Source: Hydrogenothermaceae bacterium
GTDB taxonomy: Bacteria; Aquificota; Aquificia; Aquificales; Hydrogenothermaceae
Direction of reading: 5' to 3'
Assembly (NCBI GenBank): GCA_015519975.1
Contig: WIAL01000006.1
Location: 1-64,000 of the forward strand
DNA: 64,000 nucleotides
Part shown: in pieces, positions 1,127-4,499 of the stretch
How the letters are laid out: the number at the start of each line of letters is the position of its first letter
How positions within the stretch are numbered: the stretch's first letter is position 1
The notes under the pieces: generated by a model
What the model was told of the DNA's origin: nothing
Database searches by the model: none
What the model saw: the letters and a program-made list of their open reading frames with translations, nothing else
Made by a program: the position numbers and the translations under genes

Positions 1127-2746
1127 ATGTCAATAGATGAAAATAAATTAAGACAATCTATAAAACTATTTCTAGAAGCTATAGGAGAAAATCCAGATAG
1201 AGAAGGCTTAAAGGAAACTCCAGATAGAATTGTAAGACTTTGGAAAGAATTTAAATCCCATGAAAATTTTAATATGACAGTTTTTGAAGATATTGGTGAT
1301 TATGATGAAATGGTAGTTGTTAGAGATATTCAGTTTTACAGCTTGTGCGAACATCACCTCCTTCCATTTTTTGGAAAAGCTCATATAGCTTATATTCCTG
1401 ATGGGAAAGTATGCGGACTTTCTAAACTTGTAAGGGTAGTAAATAAGTTTTCATATAGACCTCAGGTTCAGGAAAGATTGACAGCAGAAATAGCCGAGTA
1501 TTTGGAAAAAGAGTTAAACCCAAAAGGTGTGGCAGTTGTATTGGAGGCCGAGCACTTATGCTATTCTGCAGATACTGAAATATTAACAGATAAAGGATGG
1601 AAGTATTTTAAGGATTTAAATATAGAAGATAAAGTAGCTCAGGTTAATCCAGATACACTGGAAATTTCATTCACAAAGCCTGCAAATTACATAAAATATC
1701 CATTTAAAGGAATGATGATTAATTTTAAAAGTAAATCTGTAGATTTATTAGTTTCTCCAGACCATAAAATGCTTTACTCTACAGAATGGATTTTTTATAA
1801 GTCTAAAAATAAAAAATGGCTTTCAAAAAAAGCTTATGAAATTAAAGATATTCCTAAAATTATTATACCTCAAGCAGGAAAAATGCAAGGAAAAGAACTG
1901 AAATATATAGAGATAGAAGAAGACTACGATAAAGTTTATTTTGGAAATGTAGTAACAAAAACTAAAAAGAAAGTAAGAATAAAGGCTGACACTTTTCTTA
2001 AATTTTTAGGTATTTATCTTTCAGAAGGTTCTTATTATATAAAAGGCAAAAAGCAATATAAAGTTAGAATAGTTCAAAAAGCTAACACTGCTTCAGCAAA
2101 AAAAATAGAAGAAGCTATTAAAGAAATGCCGTTTAATTATAATGTTGTAAAAAGAAAGAATGGAACTGTTGAATACGTAATAAATTCTAAAATTTTGACT
2201 AAATACGTAGAAAAATTTGGAAAATCTAAAGATAAATATATTCCTGAATTTATTTATTCTTTATCAGAAAAACAGAAAAAACTATTCTTAGAGTATTTTA
2301 TACTAGGAGATGGATATTTGAAACCAGACGGTAAAACTTATCATTTTGTAAGTAAGTCAAAAAAATTAATAGATGGAATTCAGGCATTATATGCAACAAT
2401 TGGCATATCATCTACTGTATACGAACAGAAGTATAAAGATGGGAATGTATACTACAGATTAGAAACTAGAAAAGATAAGAAAGGAAATGATAAATATTAT
2501 TCTATAGTCAGAGAAGTGAAAGATGTACCATATAATGATTATATATACTCTGTAACTGTTCCAGAAGGTTATTTATTAGTAAGGAGAAACAACAAGATTG
2601 CCATATCAGGAAATTGTATGTCCATGCGGGGAGTAAAAAATCCAAGTTCCTATACTGTTACAAGTAAATTAACAGGTGTTTTCAAAGAAAATGAAAAAAC
2701 AAGAAATGAGTTTTTAAATCTAATAAATTCTCCAAGAAATATTTAA
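1127..2746 (+). CDS. folE: GTP cyclohydrolase I precursor interrupted by an intein
   Basis: Converts GTP to 7,8-dihydroneopterin triphosphate for folate and queuosine synthesis. The 539-residue frame contains two extein parts: residues 1-144 and 497-539. Joined, they give 187 residues, the normal length of bacterial FolE. Zinc ligands are Cys74 and His77 (in [11 protein letters not shown]) and Cys497 in the CMSMRGV segment. The intein interrupts the AEHL-CMSMRGV active-site segment, with the +1 residue being the zinc-binding Cys, so the precursor cannot form a normal metal site before splicing. Translation is continuous with no stop. queE starts inside the stop codon (TAATG), suggesting that this FolE feeds queuosine synthesis. 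Confidence 0.95.
1559..2614 (+). mobile_element. Intein with LAGLIDADG homing endonuclease domain in folE
   Basis: In-frame insertion of 352 residues (precursor residues 145-496). Splicing block A is [14 protein letters not shown] with Cys1. Block B includes [10 protein letters not shown] with His213. The C-terminal block is [10 protein letters not shown] ... IAISGN followed by Cys+1. The penultimate residue is Gly rather than the usual His, a recognised minority variant. Two dodecapeptide motifs typical of DOD endonucleases lie between: [11 protein letters not shown] (about 293-303) and [13 protein letters not shown] (about 386-398). Both keep an acidic residue near the motif end (Glu300 and Asp395), so the endonuclease may be active. 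Exact boundaries follow from the FolE alignment I know and from Cys/Asn junction rules. Confidence 0.93.
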
Positions 2747-3393
2747 TGGAAAAAATTAAAATAATTGAGATATTTGATTCCATAGAAGGTGAGGGTAGTC
2801 TTATAGGCTATCCTGTCACTTTTATAAGACTCGAAGGATGTAATCTAAGATGTAGCTGGTGTGATACTAAATACTCTTATGATACTGAAAATTACAAGTT
2901 GTTGTCTCTTTCAGAAATAATGCTTTTAATTAAAGAGTTTTCAAATAAAAGAGTATGTTTAACTGGAGGTGAGCCTTTTTATAATAAAGGCTTTAGGGTA
3001 CTTTTTGAGGAAATACTTAAAGAAAATTATTTTTTAATTGTAGAAACAAATGGAACATTATTTGACAGCATAATTAAAGAGCTTTGGGATAACTACAAAA
3101 ATAAAATACACCTAGTATGCTCTCCAAAGCCATTTAGTGATTTTTATATAAATGAAAAATTAATTCCTTACATTAAAGAACTTAAATTTATTGTTGATGA
3201 GTTTTTGAAAATTGAAAATATTTTAGATGTTTTAGATAATTTTAAAACCGATTTAAGCTTGATTTTACAGCCTGAAAGCAATAGACAAGATATGTTTGAA
3301 AAAGCAAGGAAGCTCCAGAAGGAGCTTTTATTAAAAAATAATTTGGAATTTAGAATAATTCCACAGGTTCACAAAATATTTAATATTGATTAA
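2746..3393 (+). CDS. queE: 7-carboxy-7-deazaguanine synthase
   Basis: Radical SAM enzyme that contracts 6-carboxy-tetrahydropterin to 7-carboxy-7-deazaguanine, the deazapurine precursor of queuosine. It carries the cluster motif CNLRCSWC (Cys32, Cys36, Cys39), with three residues between the first two Cys as in canonical QueE. The N-terminal EIFDSIEGEGSLIG segment and the GGEP motif (LTGGEPFYN) are also typical. The 215-residue length is normal. Its ATG overlaps the folE stop by one base, so the two are translationally coupled. QueD and QueC are not in the window. The 3' end overlaps the convergent ino1 by 4 bases. Confidence 0.92.
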   Translation: MEKIKIIEIFDSIEGEGSLIGYPVTFIRLEGCNLRCSWCDTKYSYDTENYKLLSLSEIMLLIKEFSNKRVCLTGGEPFYNKGFRVLFEEILKENYFLIVETNGTLFDSIIKELWDNYKNKIHLVCSPKPFSDFYINEKLIPYIKELKFIVDEFLKIENILDVLDNFKTDLSLILQPESNRQDMFEKARKLQKELLLKNNLEFRIIPQVHKIFNID

Positions 3394-4499
3394 CGTTCCC
3401 TTTCACCTTTTATAAATTCTTCTACCATTTCTTTAGCCTTCCAGTCAGGATATTGAATAGGAGGGTGTTTCATAGTGTATGCAGAAATTGAGTATAAAGG
3501 TCCAGCAATTCCTCTATCCCTTGCAATTTTTGCACATCTGATAGCGTCAATTGCAGAACCGGCGCTGTTTGGAGAGTCTTCAACATCAAGTCTAAGCTCA
3601 ATATTCATTGGAACATCACCAAACAATCTTCCTTCAAGTCTAATAAATGCTACCTTTTTATCTTTAAGCCATGGGACAAAATCACTTGGTCCAATATGTG
3701 CATTACCCCATCCTATGTCGTAACCAAGTAAAGAGGTAACGGCTTCAGTTTTTGATATTTTTTTAGTTTTAAGTCTTGCTCTTTCAAGCATATTTAAGAA
3801 GTCTGTATTGCCGCCCACATTTAACTGATAAGTTCTATCCAGTTTTACACCCCTATCAAGTAAAAGCTGTGTTAGCACTCTGTGGGTTATTGTAGCTCCT
3901 ACCTGAGACTTAATATCATCACCAACAACAGGTATTCCTGCATCTTCAAATTTTTTAGCCCACTCTTCATCGGAAACTATAAATGTAGGCATACAATTTA
4001 CAAAAGAAACTCCTGCTTTCAAACAAGCTTCAGCATAAAATCTTGCAGCTTTTTCTGCCCCAACAGGAACATAGTTTATTAAAACGTCTGCTCCGCTTTC
4101 TTTTAAAACATTCACAACAGTATCTAAATCATCTTCTGGAGCGTCAGAAACAACAAACCTTATATCTTCAGGATATTCATCCATATGCTTAGCATATCCA
4201 TCTAAAACAGGTCCTTTTCTAACAATAGCTCCTGTTTTGGGTACATTTTTATAAAAAACTGTTGTACAGTTCGGCTTTTCAAAAATTGCATCAGCAACAT
4301 CTTTGCCAACTTTTCTCTTATCAATATCCCACGCAGCTACAACTTCTATATCCCACGGCTTATATCCTGCTAAATCTAAATGCATTAATCCACTTGATTC
4401 AATATCCTGTTTTTCTCTGTAATAATGAAGTCCTTGAACTAAAGCACTTGCACAGTTTCCAACTCCAGCAATGGCAAGTTTAATTTTATTATCGGACAT
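3390..4499 (-). CDS. ino1: Inositol-3-phosphate synthase
   Basis: NAD-dependent conversion of glucose 6-phosphate to myo-inositol phosphate. The 369-residue length is that of the short prokaryotic form. The NAD-binding loop GVGNCASALVQGLHYY is at about residues 11-26. DDIKSQVGATITHR and LNVGGNTDF are further family signatures. Aquificales are known to make phosphatidylinositol-type phospholipids, so a lipid role is likely. The ATG follows AAGGAGGG. A TATAAT -10 is visible on the minus strand at 4530-4535. It is an isolated transcription unit, between queE (convergent) and the terminator of the upstream por operon. Confidence 0.92.
   Translation of the reverse strand: MSDNKIKLAIAGVGNCASALVQGLHYYREKQDIESSGLMHLDLAGYKPWDIEVVAAWDIDKRKVGKDVADAIFEKPNCTTVFYKNVPKTGAIVRKGPVLDGYAKHMDEYPEDIRFVVSDAPEDDLDTVVNVLKESGADVLINYVPVGAEKAARFYAEACLKAGVSFVNCMPTFIVSDEEWAKKFEDAGIPVVGDDIKSQVGATITHRVLTQLLLDRGVKLDRTYQLNVGGNTDFLNMLERARLKTKKISKTEAVTSLLGYDIGWGNAHIGPSDFVPWLKDKKVAFIRLEGRLFGDVPMNIELRLDVEDSPNSAGSAIDAIRCAKIARDRGIAGPLYSISAYTMKHPPIQYPDWKAKEMVEEFIKGERER

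Follow-up and report, generated by a model that had tools for sequence, protein, structure and literature searches.

The folE gene of the Hydrogenothermaceae bacterium studied here very probably harbours a class 1 intein with a homing endonuclease, which would be spliced out to leave a GTP cyclohydrolase I (FolE) of 187 residues. In the window, by which we mean the whole 64,000-nucleotide stretch of DNA that was analysed, folE and the insert share a single uninterrupted open frame of 539 codons (1127-2746), organised as follows in window coordinates.

1127-1558, + strand: N-extein, FolE residues 1-144, with the C-terminal sequence ...EAEHL (Pfam GTP_cyclohydroI, 3.9e-67; PDB GTPCH1 matches).
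1559-2614, + strand: FolE intein, 352 residues, Cys1 to Asn352 (frame, Pfam, alignment of copies, AlphaFold/Foldseek).
1559-1561, + strand: Cys1, putative splicing nucleophile, of the block [10 protein letters not shown] (invariant in the 11 full copies).
1754-1765, + strand: block B, S-P-D-H, residues 66-69, usually T-x-x-H (both Ser66 and His69 unchanged across 11 copies).
2003-2029, + strand: LAGLIDADG motif 1, FLGIYLSEG, with the catalytic Glu156 at 2024 (Glu kept in the window copy).
2288-2314, + strand: LAGLIDADG motif 2, LEYFILGDG, with the catalytic Asp251 at 2309 (Asp kept in the window copy).
2525-2614, + strand: blocks F and G, ...[16 protein letters not shown]...ISGN, with penultimate Gly351 and Asn352 (ISGN identical in 13 of 13 copies).
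2615-2746, + strand: C-extein, from Cys+1 (the metal-ligand Cys of FolE, mature residue 145) to the stop (T. thermophilus GTPCH1 alignment; TIGR00063).
2746-3393, + strand: queE-like radical SAM gene, its start overlapping the folE stop (Pfam Radical_SAM; the best NCBIfam models are those of QueE, below their cut-offs).

FolE profiles match both flanks of the unspliced frame and end at the insert, the junction reading AEHL/CMSMRGV, and the frame, the homologues and these profiles show that the boundaries and the length of 352 residues given in a preliminary description of the sequence are exact. Excising the 41.2 kDa insert in silico yields a FolE of 187 residues and 21.65 kDa, in which residues 145-187 correspond to 2615-2743. 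This product matches the TIGR00063 folE model above its cut-off over positions 2-179 of 180, and the enzyme foreseen on removal of the insert is thus a full-length member of the family, with the metal ligands (C-x-x-H and Cys) and the full T-fold domain present.

Sequence comparison and structure modelling support the reading of the insert as a full-length class 1 intein, combining a Hint splicing domain with a bipartite LAGLIDADG homing endonuclease. It matches the Pfam families LAGLIDADG_3 (1.4e-11) and LAGLIDADG_WhiA (1.3e-5), as well as Intein_splicing at 8.7e-7, which is under the curated cut-off, and weakly TIGR01445 intein_Nterm, and a sequence search of the PDB returned two inteins as its sole matches. 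In Foldseek, an AlphaFold model of the intein based on 13 homologues (pLDDT 84.3, pTM 0.86) aligns with the TliVMA, PhoVMA, PI-SceI and PI-PfuI inteins over the length of these, showing the Hint fold (E 1.8e-16 to TliVMA), and its endonuclease part matches I-DmoI. The end residues of class 1, Cys1, Asn352 and Cys+1, are all present and invariant, Cys+1 directly following the intein in every copy, and Cys1, Ser66, His69, Gly351 and Asn352 are identical across the full copies, 11 of 13, the other two being partial and situated at contig ends. The HK previously read in block B is present, but the block reads S-P-D-H-K, with Ser replacing the usual Thr, and this replacement, with the His retained, is common to all copies of the FolE intein; in block F the usual Asp is likewise replaced by Ser. 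The penultimate Gly, regarded as an oddity in the preliminary description, proves to be a fixed trait, occurring instead of His in all 13 copies as well as in related phage MuF and RNR inteins. A penultimate His is common in class 1 inteins without being universal or required, and such conservation of the Gly means that it should not be seen as a defect. MuF, anaerobic RNR and plasmid radical SAM inteins also end in Gly-Asn, which makes the penultimate Gly a trait of a wider group. Splicing could be slow or conditional, since block B Ser, block F Ser and the penultimate Gly all deviate. In the window copy both LAGLIDADG motifs have their acidic catalytic residues (Glu156 and Asp251), and its 41-kDa intein is probably splicing-capable with a live endonuclease; the earlier suggestion that the two motifs belong to an endonuclease that may still work draws support from homologues, fold and trees.

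By the mechanism we propose, the whole 539-residue frame would be translated as a precursor, in which Cys1 would form a thioester with Leu144 and the N-extein would then pass to Cys+1, and cyclisation of Asn352 would leave the two halves of FolE joined without a scar as the 187-residue enzyme. The free 41-kDa intein would cut intein-less folE alleles, the repair of which would copy the intein in. We infer from sequence and model that splicing and cleavage actually occur, and that folate and queuosine synthesis depend on the splicing of FolE.

The FolE intein is found in 13 of the 136 genomes of the phylum, always in folE and at an identical site. Twelve of these carriers, among which the window genome is counted, belong to the family of the window, Hydrogenothermaceae (f1, assigned by matching named records), and one belongs to another family (f2). 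Chance or misassembly is excluded, since the insert lies at the identical position in 12 further genomes, including one assembled as a single contig. Furthermore, folE is uninterrupted in at least 25 f1 genomes, two of them of the same genus as the window, and both the relatives with the insert and the empty sister sites that the preliminary description had proposed to look for thus exist. A GTDB-wide scan with patterns derived from this intein family, by which distant FolE inteins would be missed, detected the FolE intein in no records other than those of Aquificota MAGs with the names Hydrogenothermaceae, Persephonella or Aquificota.

The FolE host tree requires nine presence/absence changes of the intein, and the disagreement between intein and host trees indicates horizontal homing. 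The intein tree unites members of three genera (the window genome G000 of g1, G009 of g5 and G019 of g8), a grouping that is rejected by the FolE host data (AU p = 0.0001), and the g5 host clade is likewise disfavoured by the intein data (p = 0.026). Among three g5 genomes, identity is 52-56% for the inteins as against 91-94% for the exteins, and in every copy the GC content of the intein is below that of the extein (37% versus 51% in the f2 genome). Catalytic residues of the endonuclease are lost in four copies: G008 has lost the catalytic Glu of motif 1 (SKG), G009 has Asn for the catalytic Asp of motif 2 (GNG), and G016 and G022, with inteins of 322 and 326 residues, lack both motifs, and all four keep every splicing residue tested. 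dN/dS is about 0.04-0.1 for the splicing part, and for the endonuclease about 0.1 where both copies are intact but 0.3-0.5 in most pairings that involve the decayed G016 and G022, all of these values being rough since synonymous distances are near saturation. By this measure the splicing part is under strong purifying selection, and that the splicing residues outlast the loss of the endonuclease can be ascribed to splicing presumably being needed, with no regulation invoked. Taken together, the copies look as expected of a homing cycle caught in a snapshot, in which an intein is gained, its endonuclease decays and the intein is lost again.

The insertion falls directly before the metal-ligand Cys, as had been noted at the outset, and homologues and the alignment with T. 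thermophilus GTPCH1 agree on this, since Cys145 (Cys+1) aligns with chain position Cys179 and the CEHH segment (C74/H77) with positions 108 and 111. We take C74, H77 and C145 to be the three zinc ligands of GTP cyclohydrolase I, and the His two residues before Cys145 is presumably an active-site residue. Inteins are commonly inserted in conserved active-site segments of their hosts, and the insertion point is therefore the one expected for the class. Since the junction separates CEHH from Cys+1, the metal site would be split in the precursor, and as AEHL-C occurs at both positions the intein Cys1 takes the sequence place of the ligand Cys+1. It could be argued from the split site and the position of Cys1, from the conservation of the three deviating splicing residues and from the zinc inhibition of another intein through its nucleophile Cys (PMC7360933) that the intein is kept as a regulatory switch, with zinc, redox or temperature gating FolE output through conditional splicing. 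We consider this improbable, however, since the site is empty in those 25 or more genomes of the same family, same-genus species included, and since horizontal spread and endonuclease retention suit a selfish element. That the site is mostly empty speaks against any regulatory role of an obligatory kind, and the earlier idea of splicing as a control point is unsupported, since landing in an active site is the norm for inteins, most close relatives are without the insert and the distribution fits a selfish homing element.

It is likewise a long shot, argued by analogy, that the splice is zinc-gated, such that Cys74 and His77 of the N-extein together with Cys1, which follows ...AEHL at a metal-ligand position, could bind Zn and so keep the splicing nucleophile held; the metal state would in that case govern the maturation of FolE. 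In the M. smegmatis DnaBi1 intein zinc does bind the nucleophile Cys and block splicing (PMC7360933), but DnaBi1 is a class 3 intein and the FolE intein class 1, and the precedent serves as a model for a possible effect of zinc on the nucleophile.

That the insert no longer splices, so that FolE is broken and the pathway lost or fed by salvage, seems very doubtful, since the frame is open in 13 of 13 copies, since the catalytic splicing residues do not vary, not even in copies with a decayed endonuclease, and the splicing part is selected as described, and since the window genome carries PTPS-family and Pterin_bind (DHPS-type) genes. This genome, which is 99.97% complete, has one FolE, and neither FolE2 nor a second GTP cyclohydrolase I was found in it, so splicing is presumably required for growth. 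A myo-inositol-1-phosphate synthase gene (3390-4499, opposite strand; Pfam 7.8e-36) adjoins the folE-queE pair. An intron removed at the RNA level, or an assembly artefact, is scarcely credible, as the insert has no Rfam intron match and forms a continuous open frame with intein motifs, and as the same junction is seen in independent assemblies, that of the single-contig genome included.

In the part of the literature covered no description of a FolE intein was found, and FolE appears to be an unreported host for an element of known kind. Intein hosts are for the most part enzymes of DNA and nucleotides, and with FolE a small-molecule cofactor enzyme joins them; it is the product of the only GTP cyclohydrolase I gene found, serving folate and queuosine synthesis, in a heat-loving Aquificota bacterium. 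The set of allele states is unusually complete, since full, decaying and empty alleles occur together at one folE site in one bacterial family, which provides material for measuring the homing cycle. Furthermore, a thermophilic intein with a catalytic metal ligand at +1 offers a clean test of metal-gated splicing in a native host. The window genome can be called intein-rich, since three further inteins lie on its contigs C30 and C12 (L072, L073, L074), in genes which from reading of the ORF sequences encode DnaB, GyrA and DNA polymerase III alpha.

Outside FolE, near relatives are found among the inteins of anaerobic RNR, of an archaeal plasmid radical SAM gene and of MuF-type phage head genes (G004, G129), the MuF intein being one of the nearest found by sequence (37% over part, profile E = 1.6e-41). 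Mu F-like head genes with inteins of 370-371 residues occur in two Aquificota genomes (L032 785-3229 and L058 2-2077). The MuF intein, which starts CYSEDTEVLT, resembles the FolE intein in its SGN/C end and in its site after H-x-x before Cys, but differs in residing in a phage gene and in its 370 residues. An intein, reportedly without endonuclease, has also been described in the MuF gene of a Mu-like prophage of Methylococcus capsulatus (PMC517821). Carriage by phage is a plausible route by which the FolE intein may have spread; the G004 MuF intein was rejected as direct donor, since the FolE copies form a clade of their own apart from the MuF inteins in the intein tree and the G004 bin is about 7% contaminated. 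No close relative was found in viral contigs, and phage and plasmid records held only distant inteins, of at most about 29% identity among the full-length matches listed.

The RNR inteins share the penultimate Gly (AGN in NrdB of f2 genomes, CGN in NrdD of G113), and LAGLIDADG_3 is found in the NrdD intein as in that of FolE, but host and site are different, identity is 29% for NrdB, and the NrdD intein is followed by Ser. In two f2 genomes (L033, L034) the RNR small-subunit genes hold inteins of 345-346 residues ending AGN/C, and the anaerobic NrdD of G113 (L057 640-3993) has two intein-like inserts, one short and one full-length with LAGLIDADG. The LAGLIDADG class 1 inteins TliVMA, PhoVMA, PI-SceI and PI-PfuI, finally, share with the FolE intein the fold, the two-part build and Cys1, Asn and Cys+1, whereas the FolE host, the penultimate Gly and the block B Ser set it apart from them, as does a sequence identity of about 11-18% in structural alignments.
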